The notes under the pieces are model-generated. The model saw only the letters and a list, made by a program, of their open reading frames with translations, did not search any database and was not told the DNA's origin. Source: a virus. From it: a stretch of 31,531 bases of DNA. The stretch spans positions 1 through 31,531 of the IMG/VR virus record IMGVR_UViG_3300042197_000425, one strand, 5' to 3'. Positions 5,699 through 28,961 of this stretch are shown one piece after another. Every line of letters begins with the position of its first letter. The first letter of the stretch is position 1. Position numbers and translations under genes: made by a program.

Positions 5699-8600
5699 AT
5701 GCCGACATATCGCGTTAGAGATTCCGTCTCAGGGGTTACCCTTGATTTGACGGGAGACTCCCCGCCTACGGATCAAGAACTTACCGATCTTTTCGCTCAG
5801 TATGGAAAGAAAGAACCCGAGCGCACTGTCCTCGGCCAGATAGGCGAGACGTTTAAAGCAGTTCCCCGTGGCATAGCCAACACAGTTCTGTCCACTGGCG
5901 AAGGCTTGGCGGAACTCGCTGATGCGGCCACCAACTTGGTGGGCGCTAAGGGGCTGGTCGATTCCGGCGATGAGAATGCTTTGGTCAAGGCTTCTCGCGA
6001 AGGCCGGGACTGGATTGCCAATAGCGCACTCGGTGCAGATCCCACTTACCAAGACGCTTGGTTCACCAAGTTCGGTGAGGGCGTGGGTTCGATGGCGACC
6101 TTCCTTGCGCCAGTTGGAATCCTTCGTGGACTCGGTGTCGCAGGCAAAGCCATTCCCAGACTGGGAACCTCTGCACGGGAACTGGCTGCTACCGGAGCAT
6201 TAGCCACAGGCTCCGGTGCTGGCGAACAAGCACAGCGTGTTGCAGCAGCGCGGGCGCAGGGACTCGAAGTTACCCAAGGTCAAGAAGATCTTGCCGTTGG
6301 ACTTGGTGGTTTAGTCGGTCTGTCTGAAGTTGCGCCGATTGCTTTTCTTTTGAAAAGAGTCCCGAGCAACATAACCCCTGCAAATAAATCTCGGATTCTG
6401 GACTTGTTGCGGCGCTCAATGGTGGGCGGCTTTCAAGAAGCCACACAAGAGGTTGTTGCAGGCGTTGCTCAAGACTTGATCGAACAGAAGATCTATAACG
6501 AGAACATCCCTATTGGACAATCTCTCTGGGACGATCTGACCGTAGGCGGTGCAGTCGGTGCGTTCGCAGACTTCGTGGTCAATGCTGCCGCAGGACGGCG
6601 CAGTTTCATCACCACCGAAGCACAGCGTGAGTACGAAGCGAAAGCCCGTGAACGCGAGCAGGCGAACATTGAGAAGATTCGCCAGTCTCTGGCCACCGCA
6701 GCAGAACGCAGAGCGAACATTCAGGCTGACCCTGAAGGATTCAATAAGGCCGCAGCACAGGCTCAGGCAGCGGCTGCAGGGATTGCCCCGCCCACCGGTG
6801 AGGGTCCGCCCGTAGAACGCGGTGGAGCCTATGCCCGTGCGATCTCCAATCAGTTAGGGGATTACTTCCCCACCAACACCAAGTTCACGGTCGAAGCACT
6901 GCCGCTGGAAACTGAACCAGATTTCACCACTCGAACTCCAGAAGGGCAGCAGGTTACTTTTGCCAAAGCCAAACAGAAGTTTGTTGTTAAGGATTCTCAG
7001 GGCAACCAATACGGTCAAGTGCTGGATAGCCAAGAAGAAGCCTCGGCTTTGGCTTATGGTTTAAACACTGAAGCAATAGACCAACAGGTTCGGGGTCAGG
7101 TTCTTAACACCCTTGAGACTTCAGGTCAGGCTTATGACCGTGTGACTGCGGATACCTTGACCCGGTACGGTGTCCAGATCCTGAGTCCTGATCGGAACCT
7201 GATCACTTCCGCTGCCATCAACGAGGCTGCGGGAACCACTGCCGATAAAGGTTACATCGAGAACTACAGTTTCCAGACCATCCTCGATGGCGAAAAGACC
7301 AAGGATGGGTATGTTGTTCAGGGTCCAAGCCAGCAGCGTGTCACGGTCCCCGGACTGACGCTTTCTCAGCAGATCAACCAGAAGCGCAAAGAGCAAGGAC
7401 TGCCTGAGACCCAGACCTTCACTGTGGATGAAGCCCGTGAAGCGTTGGGCGACAAGTTCGAAAACCTCACCAACATCAATGTTGCTGCGATCCCGGACAA
7501 TCTGTCCTACACCGCGACGGTTATGGATGGCAAGCCGGTGGTGGTCAGTGCTGCCAACGAAGTCTTTAGTTCCCGTTTCGCCAACGAAGCAGACAGCGAA
7601 GCGTCTGGCAAGAACGAGGACGGCACACCGAAGATCAAGGTGGGCCAGAAGATTGAACTGAAGTCCTTGGAAGATGCTCAGGCTTTTGCTGAACGCAAGA
7701 ACAAAGAAGCCGCCAAAGGACAGGGTTTGTCCACACAGGAAATCAACGAAATCCTGAAGGGCAAGAAGACGCTGAACGATGAGATCACTCGGCTGCTCAA
7801 GTCGAAGAACATCGGATCAGAAATTGATACACCCGAAATCAAGACACTGTTTAAATCAATTGTCGGCAAAGAGTCTTTGGCCGACATGTCGTTCGGTGAA
7901 CAGCGTTTGTTGTACGCCCGTCTGCGTACACTGCCGACCTTCGAGGCGACCACCAAGTTGCCGGTGTTCGAGGCCAAGCCTTACACCCGTGACAACTTCC
8001 TTGCTGCATCCAAGTTCGTGCAAGACGCGAACTCATTGGGTCAATCTTTCACTGACGATCAGATCGCACAAGCGGCAGGCATTCTGCCGAATGACGAACG
8101 CAAGGATGTCAAGGTCGAGGCGATCAAGGCTGAACTTGTCAAGCAAGGGGTTCCCGTAACCAAGCCTGAAAAGCCGGTCCTGCTTTTGCCCGGCCCTGAT
8201 GGAACCACTGACACTTACAACTTCTTGCGTGAAGAGATTCGCAAGAAGATGAAAGGGTTTGGGCTGGACGATATCGCGACCCGTATCGACCAGACTCTGC
8301 TCAACTTCGGTGACCCTGTCCGATACATGCAGGAGATGGGCGCTGAAACGGAAGGGTATTACAACCCGCTCTTGCGCGAGATCACGTTGGCTGTGGATCG
8401 TATCGATCCGCAGAAGACGCTGACCCCTGAGCAGCGTGTCAATGCGTTGGTCGATGTGCTGAACCATGAGATCGTTCATCCTGTACGGAGAATGGATTTG
8501 TGGACGGGTAAAGAATGGGACACTTTGTCCAACGCTGCAGCCAGACTGAAGCGCAAAGACGATCAAGGTAAAGACACTGGTCAGACGTACCTTGAATTTG

Positions 8601-11600
8601 CGCGTCAGACCTACGCTGACAAAAGTCCTTTAGTGCATGAAGAAGAAGCGGTCGCGGATCTGTCGCGTCAAGCCAAGAAGTTCGGTGCCAAAGCGGTGGC
8701 TGGCAAGCCCAAGGTACTGGCGGATAGGCTGTTCAACTTCTTTGACCGTTTAGACAACTCGTTCCGTGGTGCTGGGTTCCAGTCGTACTCCGATATCTTG
8801 GATCGTCTGCAGTCCGGTGAAGTGGGTGCGCGTACCCGTGGCGAGATCAGAACGCTCCGTGCCACAGAAGCAGAGATGGTACAACGTGGCGTGTTGCCTG
8901 AGCGTTTCGGTGACTACCAGCCGATCCTTGCCACCCCTGTGGTACGCAACCAAGAGCGCGAGAAGAAGAAGGTTGAGGTGCAGCAGAAAGCGCAGGCTGC
9001 TGGCATCACTGACTTCAATCCTGCATCTCTCGAAGGCGCAGCGATTCGTGAGTCGCGACGGGCTATTGAGAATATTCCGAAGACTATCGATGTCGATGGC
9101 GTGGTTAAACCCACTGACGACTCAGAAGGCAGAGCCATCTACTCCGGCTACGAAGGACCGGAGGTGTATGGCATAGAGACTGCGCCAACCCAGACAGGTC
9201 TGCGTAACTTCTGGAACTGGTTCAGCAATAGCAAGGCTGTCGATAGTCAGGGCCGTCCGGTGGTGTACTACCATGGCACTGCTGCGGATATCACTGAGTT
9301 CCGCCCGAAGCAGGCAGGATCTGTATTCATTACTCGCAACCCAGAGTTTTCTGAATTGTTTGCGGGATACTCTAACAACTACATGATTGTGAACTTCCCT
9401 GATTTTATGAACGATCAGGAAGTTTCTAATGTGTTGACTGAATCAATGCGTAGTGCAACTACGCCCAAGTTTTACGACAAACTTGAGAAGATTCAGAAGC
9501 GAGTGGCTAATCGCGTAGGTCAAGGCAAGGCATTGGATGCTAAGTCTATTGCTGATATCAAGGAACTTTATTCAGATAAAACCGGCGGACTGAGTTCCAA
9601 AATGGTGGACAGTATCCGCAGGAGATTGCCGTCTGCTCCTAATCTTATGCCTGTGTATGTCAAGGCAGAGAACCCTTGGGATTATGAAAACAAAGACCAT
9701 GTTCGCGCTCTTCTTAAAGAAGTAAAAAAACAATATGGCGCTGAACTAGATGTTAGTCAGTTAGATATTGAGAACATTCGCGACGGTGATTGGGTAACCA
9801 TTGAGGGAAGCCCCGGAAACTCTCCTTTCCTTGACGCTATAAGGAACCTTGGATTTGATTCCATGTATGTTAAGGAAGCGGGGACAAAGAACCTTGCTGT
9901 CTTTAATCCCGAGCAGATCAAGTCTGCTGTCGGTAACAACGGACAGTTCGGCCCCACTCCCAGCATTATGGAGTCGCGTGTATCTACAGTTAGTTCTCTA
10001 CAGTATCCGCTGGCACCAGAAGGCACTTGGTATGGAGAGGGAACTTTTAGAGAAGACGGCGGACGACTTATTTATTTAACGCCTGATCAATATATTGCAG
10101 CGGTTCGACCATTGCGGATGGATGATGAAAGTCGCGAAAACATTGATTTGCTAAAAGAGCATATTCAAAGCGGAAAAACGCTTGATCCTTTGTTAATTCG
10201 TGCAAGTGGCAAAGAAGATGGTCGGCATCGCGCCTATGCCGCAAAAGAACTTGGCATTAAAGAAGTTCCTGTCATCGTATATGGCGATCAGTTTAAAGAT
10301 GTTCCATCTGCCACTACCCCCAGCATTCTGGAGTCGCGTAAGTATTCTGCAGTTGGTAAAAAACTTGTTGAACCTGTTGTTAGCACTAGAGTTCCCACCG
10401 CAATTCCGCGTGGAAAAAAAGCCACTGCCGTAGAAAATCCAATCGATATTAGATTGCAGATTGGTGCTGAGACGTTTAATCAAGATCCAAAGTTAATCAG
10501 CAATGCAGCGGCTTTGATTTCAAATTATCCTAATATCAGGACAAAAGACCGGAATCTTCCGCCTGATCAACTTGTCGAAAAGTTTGTTCAAGACATTACA
10601 GGTAATTTGCTGTGGCTGTATGACAATGTTCCAGCAGAAATCCGCAGTAGATCTAAATTGTGGTATGTCGGTGCTAACCGCATTTCTAATTATCTGTCTG
10701 ATCTATACGAGATCAGTCCAAATCAAGCGGCTGCAGTTCTTGCTGTCAATTCTCCGCAGACAGAATGGTTTACCAATGTCACTCGCGGAGAAAGACTGAC
10801 TGACATTTGGTTTAATAAAAAGAACTTTGACTGGTCTCCAGAAATGGAAGAGACCGCTTCCAAAATTTTTGCAAAACAAAAATACAAAAAAGATCTGGAC
10901 GCAATTCGCGGCAAAACATTAGCCGCAATTCCCGGCGACCCTGTCGAAAAGTTAATTCGCCAAGCGATGTGGATTAGAACTTATGATCAATCTCACAATC
11001 GCCGCAATTTTAGAATCATCACACCGGAAGGATCATTCGGTGATTTTGTGGTTACGGATAAGGGCAATCAGGCTATCGCCACATGGGCTGGTCTTGACCA
11101 CATTGTAAAGTCTATTTCTATTCTTGAAGACGGTTCACTGAATAACATTAGCAATCGTCTTGGAAACGCGCATAAGGTCAGAAGTTTTTACAACAACATC
11201 ATTGCGCCAGATGATCCTGCAGGTGATGTCACTATCGATACCCACGCTGTAGCGGCGGCTTTACTTCGACCGTTGTCAGGAAAGTCTATTGAAGTTTCCC
11301 ACAACCTTGGCGCTGGAATGAGTAACGCGCTAAGAGGGGTGCGTGGTCTTTATGGAATTTATGCAGAGGCATATCGAAGAGCGGCAGCACAAAGAAATGT
11401 ATTGCCCAGAGAAATGCAATCGATCACTTGGGAGGCTATTCGCGGAACATTTACGGATGTCTTCAAGAGATCAAAGCCAAAGATAAACGCTATCGAAAAT
11501 TCATGGCGCAGATACCGTGATGGGCAACTTGATAATAACGAAATTCGTGATATAGTTCTTCAAGAAGCAGGAGGAATCAATGAACCAGACTGGTGGCGAT

Positions 11601-14593
11601 CCAATCGCAATGCTCCTAAAGAAACGTGGTCTTCCACTTACGGTGGAGAGTTATCTGGATTTCGCGTATCCGGACGGGGTGCCTCGTCCCGTACCGGAAG
11701 AGTTGATACAAGAAGCGCAAGACGCGATAGACAGCGTGAAGCCCCGAAAACAAAAGGGATAATGGAATCCCGCATTGCGCCTCGCCCCGAGGTGCAGTTG
11801 CAGGATGCAACGAAGAAGGCTCAGGCCAACATCGACCGCACCCCAACTGGTGCGATCCCGCTCTACAATTTAAACGCATCACCTGATGCACTGTACGTTG
11901 CCCAGAATCCTGAGGCTGGTGAACAGTTCGATGCACAGGATCTGATCCGTTACTCGCGAACTAACCAGCCTCAGTACACTACTGGCGTACAGCAGATCAT
12001 CGACAAGTTGGCCGTTGATCCACCCAATCAGACACCGGGGCAGACGGTGATTGGCGCAGTGCAGTTGCCGCCGATTCGAAACATGATCGACAAACTGCGT
12101 CAGCAGTTCATCTTCAACTACTCGCGACTTGAGTACTACAACCAGACTCATCCAAGTCTGATCAACAATCTGGCGGATGTCAGTTCGTTGGCTGGCGCTG
12201 AGATGGCAGATCGTCACAAGGCAATCACTGCCTCTGCAATCACAGATGGTGTTCCGGTATATCGAGATGGACTGGTTCGTGTGGAACCCTTTGTCCATAA
12301 CAATCGTGAGTACAAAGGACTCATCGATGTGATGGCTCCGTTGTACAGCAATCCGTATGGGAACCTTGAACGATTGGCTCAAGCCTATGCCATTGCTATT
12401 CGAGGAAGACGTTTAACCGCTGAAGGTAAGTTGGCTCCGGGCGATCCGGCGGACTTGCCACAGTTGTTGTCCGAGGTTCGTAGGTTCACCAACCCTGCTA
12501 CGGGCAACTCGATCATCGAAGAATGGTATGACGCATGGCAGGCATACAACGCTTACACCGTGCAGTTCCTGCGCGATACCGGGATGATCGATGATGCTGG
12601 CGCACAGTTGTGGCTACAGCAATCAGACTACATTCCGTTTTATCGTGAGACTGCAGCAGGCACAGTCGCTCATCCCAAGATCTTCGGCGGACTGACTTCA
12701 ACAACCCACATGAAAGCGGTTGGTAAAAGTTCTGAAGCCATCAATCTGCCACTGCTGGATTCGGTATTGACCAATCTGGATGCAGCCATCGGCATGGGCA
12801 TGAGGAACGTGGCACAGCAGCGCATCGTTCGCGACATGATCCAGATTGGCATGGGCCGCATGGTGCAGCCGGGGCAGTTAGTTGAAGGTCAGCCCACTGT
12901 CACCTTCAAGGTCGCAGGCAAGAAGTACACCGCGTTCATCGATGATCCGTTGATCTTCGAATCCATGCAGGCGCTACCTGAAATGGGTGCAGCAGGGATT
13001 CTGGAAAACGTATTCAGGGTTCCCGCAACCGTACTCCGTGAACTGATTGTCCGTGAGCCGGGATACATGCTCGCTAACATGATGCGAGATACTGCATCGG
13101 TAGCATTGACCAGCGGCGCAAACATCATCCCTGCCGTTGATACAGTTCGTAATTTTGCGAACGGCCTAGATAACCTGCGTCGGTTTGGTGTGGTCGGCGG
13201 CTATGATTTTTCCCGTGATCCAGAAAACATTACTGAGTATCTGGCGGATGAAGCCAAGAAGCGTGGTCACCAGATCCCTGTTGACTACGACAGCAAACTG
13301 AAAGGCTTCTCCAAGTCCAAGTACATGCGCCCATTAACATGGGTATGGGATTTGTTGGGCGGAGTCTCCGATAAGGCTGAAGCCTCGACCCGTAACGCGG
13401 TATATCAGGACACCTTGAAGCGCACAGGCAACGAAGCCGAAGCGGTGTATCAGGCTTTGTCTGTGATCAACTACGGACGGCGTGGGCGTAACCCGTCTAT
13501 CCGCGCCATCACTGCATCGGTTCCATTCTTGAACGCTCGTATCCAAGGCTTGGATAAGTTGTATCAGGCTGGGACCGGGCAGGCCGGTGCGTTTAAAGAT
13601 CGTCGCAAGAACTTTGCGCGGTTCGTGTTTCGCGCTGGACTCATGGTTGGACTCACGGGCTTGTACTACGCGCTCGTCTCTGACGATGAAGAGTACAAGA
13701 ACGCCAACCCTGAGGTAGTGGATAACTACTATATCATTCCTATATTTAATGCTGATCCTGCCAAAGGAGAAAAGGGTTTAGCGTTTCGTGTACCGATCCC
13801 TTTCGAAGTAGGTCTGTTGTTCAAGACTATTCCCGAACGAATCATGCGTCGGTACTACGATGTCGATGTGGCACGGGACACGGAGCAGTCACTAAAACGC
13901 GCAGTCACTTCGACTCTTGCGTTTAACCCTGTTCCGCAGGCGGTGTTGCCGATTGCGGAAGTCATTGCCAACTACGATACGTTCACGGGTCGAACCATCA
14001 TTCCTCCGTACATGAACGAGAGTATGGCGGCTGAGTATCAGGCTCGCTTTGGAACCAATGAGTTTGCCCGTATCTTGGGCGAAGCCACTGGCATATCGCC
14101 TATCAAGATCGATCACTTGATGAATGGTTACTTGGGAACCATCGGTACCTACACACTGGATGCCATTGACCATGTGTTGCGTGACGCTGATCGGATGTAC
14201 CCTTCACGGGAACCCTATCAGTATCCGTTCGTGCGTCGGTTCTTTGCAGACAGCAATCAGCCGGGACTGCAAACTCAGTACTACGATCTATACAAAGAAG
14301 TCGGCAAGGTCACTAACACCATCCGACAACTGCGTGAAGATGGTCGCGTTGATGAACTCCAAGCCTATCTCATGGAGAACCAGACCATACTTGGCATCAA
14401 GTCAGGGGTCGATGTTCTTAACAAACGGATGAAGCAGTACCGCGATCAGAAGGAAGCGATACTCAAGTCCACCCTTGATCCTGATGTGAAGAAGGAACTG
14501 ATCGATGATCTGGATGCCAGCATCAATCAGACTCTGCAAGTGGTTCCCATCCTGAAGAGAGCGGCATACAGTGAGCAGAGACAAGCAGGCTAG
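5699..14593 (+). CDS. Giant polyvalent virion protein (2964 aa): zincin, ART-like, ParB-like, glycosylase-like and membrane-associated modules
   Basis: Modules in order: residues 1-40 carry a conserved podovirus internal-protein N-terminus (G-D-S-P-P-T-D-Q-E-L); about 125-215 are Ala/Gly-rich hydrophobic helices; about 840-1030 are a metallopeptidase-like domain with H-E-I-V-H at 923-927 and H-E-E-E-A at 980-984 as possible further ligand; about 1170-1420 are an ADP-ribosyltransferase-like domain (Y-H-G-T around 1192, ending N-P-E-Q-I-K-S); about 1430-1535 are a ParB/sulfiredoxin-like domain (E-D-G-R-H-R at 1506-1511); about 1550-2015 are a module resembling HhH-GPD glycosylases; about 2050-2830 are large polyvalent-protein-associated domains, including one hydrophobic helix near 2646-2665. 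Such proteins are known from phages (Iyer and Aravind's 'polyvalent proteins') and are thought to be delivered with the DNA. The motif I-x-E-S-R recurs at the module borders. Confidence 0.85.
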   Translation: MPTYRVRDSVSGVTLDLTGDSPPTDQELTDLFAQYGKKEPERTVLGQIGETFKAVPRGIANTVLSTGEGLAELADAATNLVGAKGLVDSGDENALVKASREGRDWIANSALGADPTYQDAWFTKFGEGVGSMATFLAPVGILRGLGVAGKAIPRLGTSARELAATGALATGSGAGEQAQRVAAARAQGLEVTQGQEDLAVGLGGLVGLSEVAPIAFLLKRVPSNITPANKSRILDLLRRSMVGGFQEATQEVVAGVAQDLIEQKIYNENIPIGQSLWDDLTVGGAVGAFADFVVNAAAGRRSFITTEAQREYEAKAREREQANIEKIRQSLATAAERRANIQADPEGFNKAAAQAQAAAAGIAPPTGEGPPVERGGAYARAISNQLGDYFPTNTKFTVEALPLETEPDFTTRTPEGQQVTFAKAKQKFVVKDSQGNQYGQVLDSQEEASALAYGLNTEAIDQQVRGQVLNTLETSGQAYDRVTADTLTRYGVQILSPDRNLITSAAINEAAGTTADKGYIENYSFQTILDGEKTKDGYVVQGPSQQRVTVPGLTLSQQINQKRKEQGLPETQTFTVDEAREALGDKFENLTNINVAAIPDNLSYTATVMDGKPVVVSAANEVFSSRFANEADSEASGKNEDGTPKIKVGQKIELKSLEDAQAFAERKNKEAAKGQGLSTQEINEILKGKKTLNDEITRLLKSKNIGSEIDTPEIKTLFKSIVGKESLADMSFGEQRLLYARLRTLPTFEATTKLPVFEAKPYTRDNFLAASKFVQDANSLGQSFTDDQIAQAAGILPNDERKDVKVEAIKAELVKQGVPVTKPEKPVLLLPGPDGTTDTYNFLREEIRKKMKGFGLDDIATRIDQTLLNFGDPVRYMQEMGAETEGYYNPLLREITLAVDRIDPQKTLTPEQRVNALVDVLNHEIVHPVRRMDLWTGKEWDTLSNAAARLKRKDDQGKDTGQTYLEFARQTYADKSPLVHEEEAVADLSRQAKKFGAKAVAGKPKVLADRLFNFFDRLDNSFRGAGFQSYSDILDRLQSGEVGARTRGEIRTLRATEAEMVQRGVLPERFGDYQPILATPVVRNQEREKKKVEVQQKAQAAGITDFNPASLEGAAIRESRRAIENIPKTIDVDGVVKPTDDSEGRAIYSGYEGPEVYGIETAPTQTGLRNFWNWFSNSKAVDSQGRPVVYYHGTAADITEFRPKQAGSVFITRNPEFSELFAGYSNNYMIVNFPDFMNDQEVSNVLTESMRSATTPKFYDKLEKIQKRVANRVGQGKALDAKSIADIKELYSDKTGGLSSKMVDSIRRRLPSAPNLMPVYVKAENPWDYENKDHVRALLKEVKKQYGAELDVSQLDIENIRDGDWVTIEGSPGNSPFLDAIRNLGFDSMYVKEAGTKNLAVFNPEQIKSAVGNNGQFGPTPSIMESRVSTVSSLQYPLAPEGTWYGEGTFREDGGRLIYLTPDQYIAAVRPLRMDDESRENIDLLKEHIQSGKTLDPLLIRASGKEDGRHRAYAAKELGIKEVPVIVYGDQFKDVPSATTPSILESRKYSAVGKKLVEPVVSTRVPTAIPRGKKATAVENPIDIRLQIGAETFNQDPKLISNAAALISNYPNIRTKDRNLPPDQLVEKFVQDITGNLLWLYDNVPAEIRSRSKLWYVGANRISNYLSDLYEISPNQAAAVLAVNSPQTEWFTNVTRGERLTDIWFNKKNFDWSPEMEETASKIFAKQKYKKDLDAIRGKTLAAIPGDPVEKLIRQAMWIRTYDQSHNRRNFRIITPEGSFGDFVVTDKGNQAIATWAGLDHIVKSISILEDGSLNNISNRLGNAHKVRSFYNNIIAPDDPAGDVTIDTHAVAAALLRPLSGKSIEVSHNLGAGMSNALRGVRGLYGIYAEAYRRAAAQRNVLPREMQSITWEAIRGTFTDVFKRSKPKINAIENSWRRYRDGQLDNNEIRDIVLQEAGGINEPDWWRSNRNAPKETWSSTYGGELSGFRVSGRGASSRTGRVDTRSARRDRQREAPKTKGIMESRIAPRPEVQLQDATKKAQANIDRTPTGAIPLYNLNASPDALYVAQNPEAGEQFDAQDLIRYSRTNQPQYTTGVQQIIDKLAVDPPNQTPGQTVIGAVQLPPIRNMIDKLRQQFIFNYSRLEYYNQTHPSLINNLADVSSLAGAEMADRHKAITASAITDGVPVYRDGLVRVEPFVHNNREYKGLIDVMAPLYSNPYGNLERLAQAYAIAIRGRRLTAEGKLAPGDPADLPQLLSEVRRFTNPATGNSIIEEWYDAWQAYNAYTVQFLRDTGMIDDAGAQLWLQQSDYIPFYRETAAGTVAHPKIFGGLTSTTHMKAVGKSSEAINLPLLDSVLTNLDAAIGMGMRNVAQQRIVRDMIQIGMGRMVQPGQLVEGQPTVTFKVAGKKYTAFIDDPLIFESMQALPEMGAAGILENVFRVPATVLRELIVREPGYMLANMMRDTASVALTSGANIIPAVDTVRNFANGLDNLRRFGVVGGYDFSRDPENITEYLADEAKKRGHQIPVDYDSKLKGFSKSKYMRPLTWVWDLLGGVSDKAEASTRNAVYQDTLKRTGNEAEAVYQALSVINYGRRGRNPSIRAITASVPFLNARIQGLDKLYQAGTGQAGAFKDRRKNFARFVFRAGLMVGLTGLYYALVSDDEEYKNANPEVVDNYYIIPIFNADPAKGEKGLAFRVPIPFEVGLLFKTIPERIMRRYYDVDVARDTEQSLKRAVTSTLAFNPVPQAVLPIAEVIANYDTFTGRTIIPPYMNESMAAEYQARFGTNEFARILGEATGISPIKIDHLMNGYLGTIGTYTLDAIDHVLRDADRMYPSREPYQYPFVRRFFADSNQPGLQTQYYDLYKEVGKVTNTIRQLREDGRVDELQAYLMENQTILGIKSGVDVLNKRMKQYRDQKEAILKSTLDPDVKKELIDDLDASINQTLQVVPILKRAAYSEQRQAG
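9044..9058 (+). repeat. Seam 1 (I-R-E-S-R) in the polyvalent protein
   Basis: Codons for residues 1116-1120 read I-R-E-S-R. This is the most N-terminal of four in-frame I-x-E-S-R motifs and lies before the ART-like module. Confidence 0.6.
9956..9979 (+). repeat. Seam 2 (T-P-S-I-M-E-S-R)
   Basis: It encodes residues 1420-1427, directly after the ART-like module. The last 21 nt, from CCC AGC through TCG CGT, differ from seam 3 at one base. Confidence 0.8.
10316..10339 (+). repeat. Seam 3 (T-P-S-I-L-E-S-R)
   Basis: It encodes residues 1540-1547, directly after the ParB-like module. It is a near-perfect direct repeat of seam 2, 360 nt downstream and in frame. Confidence 0.8.
11756..11773 (+). 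repeat. Seam 4 (G-I-M-E-S-R)
   Basis: It encodes residues 2020-2025. The protein motif is kept while the codons differ from seams 2 and 3. Base composition returns to the GC-richer genome norm directly after it. Confidence 0.7.
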
Positions 14594-26560: not shown

Positions 26561-27346
26561 TCACGCCGCCACCTTCTGAGTCGCCTGCTCCCACAGCGCC
26601 GTCACTGTCGCGTTGGCGCGGTCCGGGGTGCAGTACTCGCTGCCTGCAATGTTTGGGATCACAAGGTCTGCACCGTTGCACTCTTCTGCGAAGTGCCTCG
26701 AGTACCCGTAGCCGTTCACGACATGCGGCACCATGAACTCCATCACGCGGAAGAAAAACCGCCGCAGCATGATCGGCGTTGCAAACACCAGACCCACGCG
26801 GTCCATGTCGATGGGTTCCTCGGGGCGTTTAACCGTGACCGACCAGACGAATCGGTCATTGCGGTACTCGCCGTGCTTGACCGCGATCAGTTCGACGCGG
26901 CGACCTGCGGACTGGATGCGGTCGATCAGAGTCACAATCGCAGCACCGCGATTGACAATGTGATTAGCATCCACGGCTGCAGAGGCAGACATGTTGACCA
27001 CGATCCGCACGACAGGCGACTGCACGGGCGGCGCGATATCGGACATGGCGAACATGTCTTCGGGAACCCCTGCTGCATAAGCCGGGATGCAGGGGAACGC
27101 ACCGACCGGCGCGGTGTCCCATAACGGTTCGGGCGACGAGGTCACCTTCAAGGTCACCGAATCGATGGCAGCACGGGCAACCGCGTGGCCCTTGACCGCG
27201 TAGTCGAGGGCCGCGTTCCAGTCGCGGCAACCCGACCAACCGTCATGATCAACTCTCTCTGAACCGTCTTCAGACCAGTTGATTTTGCGGGTCCGCAGGT
27301 CATGTACGAACTCATCCCACGATTCTGCGGTGTATCGGTAGATCAT
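26561..27346 (-). CDS. VWA-like protein with degenerate MIDAS (261 aa)
   Basis: Residues about 110-160 read like the first strand and helix of a von Willebrand A domain: V-V-R-I-V-V-N-M-S-A-S-A-A-V (112-125), then a helix and V-E-L-I-A-V-K. The metal-site motif D-x-S-x-S is N-x-S-x-S here (N118), so metal binding may be weakened or lost. The N-terminus (S-W-D-E-F-V-H, then G-W-S-G-C-R-D-W) resembles phage proteins that accompany CobS/MoxR ATPases. It is ATGA-coupled to the AAA+ gene upstream. It probably serves as adaptor or substrate recogniser for that ATPase. Confidence 0.65.
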   Translation of the reverse strand: MIYRYTAESWDEFVHDLRTRKINWSEDGSERVDHDGWSGCRDWNAALDYAVKGHAVARAAIDSVTLKVTSSPEPLWDTAPVGAFPCIPAYAAGVPEDMFAMSDIAPPVQSPVVRIVVNMSASAAVDANHIVNRGAAIVTLIDRIQSAGRRVELIAVKHGEYRNDRFVWSVTVKRPEEPIDMDRVGLVFATPIMLRRFFFRVMEFMVPHVVNGYGYSRHFAEECNGADLVIPNIAGSEYCTPDRANATVTALWEQATQKVAA

Positions 27347-28347
27347 GCTGCAGCCCTCCGGGGCATGTTGGCGCGGACCTTTTCAAGATCGAGCGCAGAG
27401 AGGTTACGGGTCAGGACCATGGCCTCGACGCGGTCCCATGCGAGGCCCGCAGAGAGCAACTTGCCGCCCTTGATCGAAGCGCGAGGGCTGACAACGTGAC
27501 GCAACTTGAGGTCGCGCACCGCCTTGCGGAACGCCTGCACATGGCGCGTCCATGCGTCATTCGGGCTGATCGCAAGTTCGAGCCGCTCGTCATAGTCCAT
27601 GGGGAGGAACGAGAATCGGTCGAGCGTGGCGGCATCGAGTTGGGCGCGGCCCACATACTGCGCGTCAGCACCTGCACCGAAGGTATTCGCAGCGGCGACG
27701 ATCACAAAGTCCGCATGCCGTTTAACCGTTCCGCAGGGAAAGGCGGCGAGGTCATTGGCGGCAATCGCGTTGAACGCGAGCAAAGCCTGTGCGCTCGATG
27801 CGTCGATTTCATCGAACAGGAACACGCCGCCGCTCGTGTAAGCGCGGTACAGGTCGGTTTCCATGTACTTGCCTTCGGCGTTGATGAAGCCCTGCAACTG
27901 GTACGCCATGCCCACAGCGCCGGTCGAGTAGAAGGGCAGTTCCAGTGCTTCAGCAGCCTGCGCGGCGATGGTGGTTTTGCCGGAGCCTGCGGGTCCGACC
28001 AAGTACACATTCTCGCGAACCGACAGCGCGGCGAGAACATCCGCGAACACCGCATGACGGTGACCGGCAGGCAAGGTGCGAATGACGGCACCCTGCTTGA
28101 TTTCGATGCGAATCGGGCGATGCACTTCGACCGCAGCCACCGCAGCCTTGATGGCATCCTGCCGAATGCCCTCGATGGTCGCAGCGTCGAGGGAAGCGGC
28201 AGCGACCGGAGCGGGATCGACCCCGTTCCAAATCGCGAGCAGCACGTCATCCGCGCTGTTGGGCGACTTGCCCTGTCGCACCGCATGCATTTTGAGGTAC
28301 GCGCGGTCGCTGTCGGACAGCGGCAGGGAGAATGAACGCTTTTCCAT
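27343..28347 (-). CDS. MoxR/CobS-like AAA+ ATPase (334 aa)
   Basis: Walker A is G-P-A-G-S-G-K-T-T at 118-126, Walker B V-F-L-F-D-E-I-D at 175-182, sensor I N221, and a likely arginine finger is in L-D-R-F near 244. The order and the long insert between Walker A and B fit MoxR/CobS-type ATPases, which remodel partner proteins together with VWA proteins. The N-terminal 70 residues (L-S-D-S-D-R-A-Y-L-K-M-H-A) resemble a small helical adaptor. ATG 28347 has GGAGG 7 nt upstream and follows the metallopeptidase stop by 2 nt. An in-frame extension to 28464 overlaps that gene and is rejected. Confidence 0.85.
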   Translation of the reverse strand: MEKRSFSLPLSDSDRAYLKMHAVRQGKSPNSADDVLLAIWNGVDPAPVAAASLDAATIEGIRQDAIKAAVAAVEVHRPIRIEIKQGAVIRTLPAGHRHAVFADVLAALSVRENVYLVGPAGSGKTTIAAQAAEALELPFYSTGAVGMAYQLQGFINAEGKYMETDLYRAYTSGGVFLFDEIDASSAQALLAFNAIAANDLAAFPCGTVKRHADFVIVAAANTFGAGADAQYVGRAQLDAATLDRFSFLPMDYDERLELAISPNDAWTRHVQAFRKAVRDLKLRHVVSPRASIKGGKLLSAGLAWDRVEAMVLTRNLSALDLEKVRANMPRRAAA

Positions 28348-28349
28348 GA

Positions 28350-28961
28350 TCAAGCCTCCACGTTGAGTGAGCCAACCGCGATGCAGACCGGGCAGGTCGA
28401 TGCGGCGTGTAAACGATTCGCCTGCAGGGCAGACACACGGGCGGTCCAACCGCAGTCGCTGCACTGCAATTTCAGCAGGCGAGTGCCTTGCTTTTTGCGA
28501 GCATTCGGGTCCACCTTGGCATGCGGGTACACGCCGAGGTCCGCGACGATCCGCTGCAGGGTGCCGCGCAACTCGTCACCGGGAACCGTCGAGGTCATGG
28601 GACCAGTGAGGCCAATGCCGCGAGCGACGGTGGCAAAGCGACCACGGTGACCGCAGGCGATACCGGCTTCGACGTGGATCAACTCATGCGCGAGAACCGC
28701 GATGACATCGACCGGGTTGTCGAGAATCGGGTTGATGAACACCTCCATGGTGCCGTCCGCACTGATCGAGGGATCGAACGCCTGCCCAAGCGTCACCTTG
28801 CCGGTGCGCGAGCCGCGATACCCAATCGGGAACCCGCATGACACGCGATACTTGCGCTGCTCCCATGAGGCAGCATCGATACCGGCGACCGGGAAAACCT
28901 CATGCTGCAGCATCACTGCCGCAGCGGCGAGCCATGACTCGCGTTCGCTGAACTTCTGCAT
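28350..28961 (-). CDS. SprT-like zinc metallopeptidase with zinc ribbon (203 aa)
   Basis: The active-site motif is A-H-E-L-I-H at 91-96 with H105 as a probable third ligand. The C-terminus has C167-x2-C170 and C190-x2-C193, a zinc ribbon. This is the arrangement of SprT-like proteases, which cut DNA-bound or crosslinked proteins. ATG 28961 has a GGGAG site (GGAGTTTAAACATG). It starts a tightly packed three-gene set with the AAA+ ATPase and the VWA-like protein, suggesting that the ATPase and adaptor feed or control the peptidase. No signal peptide is seen, so it acts in the cytoplasm. Confidence 0.8.
   Translation of the reverse strand: MQKFSERESWLAAAAVMLQHEVFPVAGIDAASWEQRKYRVSCGFPIGYRGSRTGKVTLGQAFDPSISADGTMEVFINPILDNPVDVIAVLAHELIHVEAGIACGHRGRFATVARGIGLTGPMTSTVPGDELRGTLQRIVADLGVYPHAKVDPNARKKQGTRLLKLQCSDCGWTARVSALQANRLHAASTCPVCIAVGSLNVEA

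Follow-up and report, generated by a model that had tools for sequence, protein, structure and literature searches.

Results

A polyvalent protein with repeated motifs at its module borders

The window analysed here is a virus record of 31,531 bases taken in its full length. Its central feature is a single open reading frame for a protein of 2964 aa, in which the following parts were delimited (evidence in brackets).

5699..14593, plus strand: coding sequence of the polyvalent protein, 2964 aa (open reading frame; Pfam domains)
8354..8998, plus strand: zincin-type metallopeptidase module, residues 886-1100, with HEIVH at residue 923, nt 8465-8479 (HExxH; confident AF2 domain; weak Foldseek match)
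9044..9058, plus strand: seam 1, IRESR, residues 1116-1120 (motif scan)
9059..9964, plus strand: ART-PolyVal cassette (Pfam PF18760; AF2 domain)
9965..9979, plus strand: seam 2, IMESR, residues 1423-1427 (motif; homology to relatives L001 and L002 stops here)
9980..10324, plus strand: ParB-like cassette, missing from L001 and L002 (homology, fold match)
10325..10339, plus strand: seam 3, ILESR, residues 1543-1547 (motif scan)
10340..11758, plus strand: third cassette, with DUF7178 at residues 1815-1916 (Pfam; unrelated to L001 and L002 at this place)
11759..11773, plus strand: seam 4, IMESR, residues 2021-2025 (motif; homology to L001 restarts exactly here)
11945..11959, plus strand: seam 5, IRYSR, residues 2083-2087 (related motif; in most, not all, of the relatives examined)
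11960..14590, plus strand: conserved C-terminal core with no further seams and with LPD38 at nt 13685-14233 (Pfam; relatives)

Pfam recognises ART-PolyVal, DUF7178 and LPD38 in this protein, so that several different domains including an LPD stand in one chain, the hallmark of phage polyvalent proteins. Four in-frame I-x-E-S-R motifs had been reported by the first-pass annotation, and all four indeed lie within the coding sequence, at residues 1116, 1423, 1543 and 2021 (nt 9044, 9965, 10325 and 11759); across the six frames of the window the motif occurs nowhere else. IRYSR at residue 2083, which had been overlooked, is related to these and makes a fifth site. The modules between the seams are an ART-PolyVal domain (by Pfam), a ParB-like module and a third module that carries DUF7178 (by Pfam). 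The ParB-like module is 50% identical to an Octadecabacter virus protein, matches ParBc-annotated proteins as well, and gives a weak ParB-N fold match in Foldseek. Searching phage genomes with the window by blastn gave no match, and PDB sequence searches gave no useful one. The "toxin delivery" role that had been attached to the protein is a putative one, read from domain types. Between seams 4 and 5 (window 11774-11944) lies a conserved stretch of ~60 aa that is kept in close relatives. Elsewhere in the window, an AAA-type ATPase-like gene (27343-28464, minus strand) matches a PHROG annotated as porphyrin biosynthesis.

At the DNA level, seams 2 and 3 lie in a 24-nt direct repeat (9956-9979 and 10316-10339, 92% identical); the final 21 nt of the two copies contain a single mismatch, as had been noted, and seam 4 has the same amino acids in other codons (ATA ATG GAA TCC CGC). 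Four copies of I.ESR itself were seen in 0 of 20,000 shuffles of the window protein. When any 4-of-5 pattern with four spaced copies was allowed, 18 of 300 shuffles gave one (P ~0.06, a look-elsewhere value for a single protein). The window alone is thus weak evidence, and significance comes from the relatives.

Cassettes are exchanged at the seams

We aligned the window protein with two close relatives found in IMG/VR, L001, the closest, and L002. Both resemble it strongly as far as about residue 1240 and then from residue 2041 onwards (for L001, mostly ~90% identity outside residues 1240-2020), and both are unrelated to it at residues 1425-2015. The borders of this region are sharp: the three proteins match on the left side of seam 2, the match is lost on its right side, and right of seam 4 the match to L001 restarts, beginning at I-x-E-S-R itself. 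In the place occupied by the ParB-like and DUF7178 cassettes of the window protein, L001 carries an ASCH cassette and another module, and L002 carries only the latter. Over 13 relatives, the window included, 38 of 207 clustered homology breakpoints are no more than 10 aa away from a seam; 2000 circular shifts gave 5.8 on average and 16 at most. The claim that the motif bounds exchangeable modules is borne out by this swap and by the clustering of breakpoints. Enrichment of the motif at module borders in homologues, the lack of which would have counted as refutation in the first-pass annotation, came out strongly in favour.

Each protein uses its own tag

From viral contigs and bacterial genomes we assembled a wider set of ORFs that carry an ART-PolyVal tail, 151 after removal of redundancy. 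The tail itself, KSAxGNxGxFDPxNPDI, is conserved, and the residues that follow it vary between proteins: RFSR, RYSLR, RKSLR, RESR, RFAPR, RYSPK, TK[AK]xGG and others are found there, and these tags are repeated elsewhere in their own protein. At the same borders, other lineages show [KR][YFLK]SL[RK], FSR, FAPR, [YF]SPK or K[AK]xGG as seams. Outside the ART tails, [FYE]SR, [FYLKM]SL[RK] and [KR][AK]xGG are enriched in proteins of the same class (none of 5000 shuffles of the labels was as extreme). The recurrence of a Gln-ended class (NILHQS, LLFQSAWHG), which is also present, was not significant (P 0.16). In a test that used no classes, 41 recurrences of the 4-mer that follows the ART were counted within its own protein, where 6.8 are expected from other proteins, and control k-mers from inside the ART recur 21 times where 26.9 are expected; the exact 4-mer recurs at least once for 32 of 157, and not every protein repeats the exact string. 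At matched ART identity (25-35%), tag likeness averages 10.8 within a protein (n=20) and 1.4 between proteins (n=3056). An unsupervised search for over-represented spaced patterns placed the seam tags among its top patterns, together with unrelated ones.

The tags are not confined to ART modules; they also follow zincin, ParB, DUF7178, ASCH and GP88 modules. The ASCH cassettes of L001, L095 and L112 are 40-45% identical over HSPs and yet are bracketed by IRESR in the first, KATGG in the second and KAKGG/AAKGG in the third. As the same cassette is found in different brackets, the tag goes with the protein that harbours it and not with the cassette.

Several individual cases were noted. The clearest private tag outside the clan of the window is FAPR, present six times in L178 (a Nitrospirales-associated 3851-aa ORF, residues 1653-2962) and twice followed there by ATPPY. 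Tags of the form K[AK]xGG(x)V mark L095, L112, L072, L093, L121 and their relatives, nearly all of which are without HExxH. Possible Gln-ended tags (NILHQS, LLFQSAWHGS) occur before or after the ART in L217 (residue 1795), L175, L215, L219 and L183. In Cupriavidus pampae (L170) three neighbouring ART-bearing ORFs (7526, 12317 and 15805) have the related tags FARx, FRRx and FSRx. The adjacent genes gp59 and gp60 of F116 (L222) apparently form one 4947-aa chain in vB_PaeM_USP_18 (L221), a related Pseudomonas phage, and both phages retain SR tags by the ART. Plasmid relatives are few and short. Finally, we looked for the tag in neighbouring virion genes: the upstream 704-aa protein of L001 has VQESR near its N-terminus, and its homologue in the window lacks it.

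Seams lie mostly in predicted linkers between the metallopeptidase and the core

For residues 790-1600 of the window protein, AF2 predicts the zincin and ART domains with confidence and the ParB-like domain with moderate confidence. This stretch contains three seams, all of them in segments with pLDDT <50 between these domains, and seam 1 has no confident placement. Foldseek matches are weak and consistent with zincin metallopeptidase, ART and ParB-N folds. For residues 1090-1900 of L028, from the SLR lineage, the model was poor (mean pLDDT 40, six sequences), so that the evidence for disorder is from the window protein. Two features expected of a self-processing polyprotein are seen, a site that recurs at domain borders in linkers predicted to be exposed and, given the zincin-like domain with its HEIVH at residue 923, a putative protease within the same chain.

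Almost all seams fall in the stretch that separates the HExxH metallopeptidase from the LPD38 core. In 13 of 13 clan proteins the first seam comes 182-214 aa after HExxH, with none before it. In the SLR clan, tag density per 1000 aa is 2.10 from zincin to core, compared with 0.15 on the N-terminal side of the zincin and 0.69 over the final 900 aa. HExxH is present in 19 of 20 SLR, 19 of 30 SR, 10 of 11 Q and 1 of 11 GG proteins, with 0.014 per 1000 aa expected by chance. Among proteins of 1200-2000 aa it was found in 0 of 9 of the GG class and in 12 of 24 of the other classes (one-sided hypergeometric P ~0.008), a contrast which, the GG proteins being shorter, is drawn from few proteins and in which lineage and zincin type are confounded by phylogeny. 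Since 11 of 30 S-R class proteins are without HExxH, self-processing cannot be the sole route.

Discussion

Tags as proposed processing sites

The tags stand at cassette borders between zincin and core, are private to each protein and are recoded around homologous cassettes; the linkers in which they lie are predicted to be disordered. From this pattern we infer cleavage, its enzyme and its timing. On balance we lean towards reading the seams as lineage-specific processing sites of a phage polyprotein, and the tags are probably cut in one way or another. Cutting by the window protein's own zincin is a reasonable candidate that we put forward tentatively; where a protein bears HExxH, that peptidase would most likely be the cutter. 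The S-R proteins without HExxH count against this reading, and so does the N4 virion RNA polymerase, which is reported to be packaged uncleaved (see below).

In the mechanism that we propose, the conserved N-terminal part with its zincin and the conserved LPD38 core at the C-terminus would be the permanent parts, and the cargo region between them would hold exchangeable effector cassettes, each closed by the protein's own short tag within a flexible linker. After assembly or ejection, a tag-specific protease would cut and so free the cassettes. In the window and SL[RK] lineages the likeliest enzyme would be the zincin whose module directly precedes the first tag, and lineages without a zincin would use another enzyme and with it another tag, such as K[AK]xGG. 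A captured cassette would have to gain the local tag, which would make tags uniform within a protein and different between proteins. Were all seams of the window protein cut, the products would be the N-terminal part, cassettes that the first-pass annotation put at ~34, 13 and 53 kDa, a peptide of ~60 aa and the core. More generally, polyvalent proteins could be true polyproteins with lineage-private cleavage specificity, protease and tag co-evolving, so that a captured cassette would work only once it carries the local tag and the differing tag ends (...SR, ...SL[RK], ...xGG, possibly ...Q) would mark different processing enzymes; this we consider nearly an even call.

Alternative explanations

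The first-pass annotation had left it open whether the motif is a recombination seam or a processing site, and of the two, processing at the protein level fits better and a DNA recombination seam less well. If short common DNA at cassette ends guided exchange, the amino acids would be a by-product. Seams 2 and 3, with 24 nt in common at 92%, would suit such guidance, as would the repetition of ATT CGG GAG TCG CGT at seam 2 of several relatives and the clustering of homology breakpoints at seams. Within one gene, however, seams share codons at rates close to those expected from codon usage for R (9 of 37 versus 8.2) and E (22 of 37 versus 19.2), with a modest excess for S (12 of 37 versus 6.7), and DNA identity beyond what amino acids and codon usage predict was not found. 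Homologous cassettes in other lineages have unrelated seam sequences, and recombination guided by DNA would not preserve one tag where the synonymous codons differ. The repeat at seams 2 and 3 may go back to recent copying, but this leaves unexplained the uniform amino acids over varied codons and the recoding around homologous cassettes. We thus consider the DNA reading improbable; as the sole explanation it is largely refuted, and it may contribute within close relatives. Because homologous cassettes in other lineages have other seams and codon sharing is near expectation, the seam is a tag at the level of the protein, private to each chain, and not a site of DNA recombination. Chance, or tails inherited by duplicated ART modules, could be argued from the single-protein P of ~0.06 and from the several ARTs of some proteins. 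Yet zincin, ParB, DUF7178, ASCH and GP88 modules are tag-terminated too, k-mers from the ART interior do not recur, and breakpoint clustering, tag likeness at matched identity and 4-mer recurrence rule this explanation out, leaving it next to no probability.

Two further readings accept a protein-level tag. In one, the seams are bound and not cut, serving as docking tags for a factor that the phage itself supplies for packaging, unfolding or ejection, with the repeats letting each module be handled separately while the chain threads the tail. The same distribution (private to the protein, in linkers, after each cassette) fits this idea, which needs no protease and so covers the S-R proteins without HExxH. 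It gives no reason, however, for tags lying mainly between zincin and core instead of along the whole chain, nor for a GG class without HExxH, and we regard it as unlikely, if worth keeping in mind. In the other, the phage head-maturation protease cuts the seams in place of the zincin. I-x-E|S-R does resemble the sites of the form (L/I)-x-E| at which T4 internal proteins, the injected ART Alt among them, are cut. The cleavage in the P1 capsid protein likewise falls between an E and an S, E120 and S121 (PMC9024508). The E and S of I-x-E-S-R are invariant in 35 distinct clan seams, though these were collected by that very pattern. Against this, other lineages show Y, F, L, K or A instead of E, so that an (L/I)-x-E consensus holds in the I-x-E-S-R clan and not family-wide. 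Peptidase_S78 and CLP_protease gave no match in 10 clan records, which may be incomplete; a search for S77 in clan records gave none either and is uninformative, the control searches having no match. A head protease as the cutter seems to us distinctly unlikely. Processing sites, as set out above, remain our preferred reading.

Comparison with known systems

In T4, internal proteins including the injected ART Alt carry prohead-protease sites of the form (L/I)-x-E. The window protein is like them in its site form and in having an ART, and it too would be a packaged, injected effector; it differs in that its one chain has a number of sites, placed between modules, in that other lineages have other tags, and in that no S78 or ClpP-type head protease was found in the 10, possibly incomplete, clan records. 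Polyproteins of positive-strand RNA viruses combine one chain, repeated short sites at borders, a protease in cis and a lineage-specific site. The layout here is similar, the products in our case would be exchangeable phage effectors, and we claim no evolutionary relationship. Phage P1 packages the antirestriction proteins DarA, DdrB and DarB into its virion, some of them proteolytically processed. A DarB-like protein of 4515 aa, gp69 of the Bcep22-like phage JC1, was detected in the virion by MS (PMC9144972).

The closest precedent is the description of polyvalent proteins of phages and conjugative elements by Iyer et al. (2017; PMC5512222), in which processing by metallopeptidases is proposed on other grounds and the N4 virion RNA polymerase, with a peptidase domain, is reported to be packaged uncleaved. 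In the searched passages of its main text there is no cleavage site or seam motif. We found no description of a seam motif or cleavage signature in the open-licence literature either, where the papers listed for the seam strings were unrelated. The tags on related phage proteins suggest that each protein marks its own points for cutting after assembly or injection. For many phages such a tag predicts precisely where fragments would end, and it offers a means of marking module borders and thereby of finding unnamed effector domains in giant phage proteins with no recourse to homology with known domains. The window protein has ART-PolyVal, LPD38, ParB-like and zincin modules in a large phage protein in common with the proteins of the 2017 study, and in addition to what the searched passages give, it and its relatives show a site signature private to each protein. 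That study proposed, without sites, that metallopeptidases cut polyvalent proteins, and a readable tag opens this proposal to a direct test.
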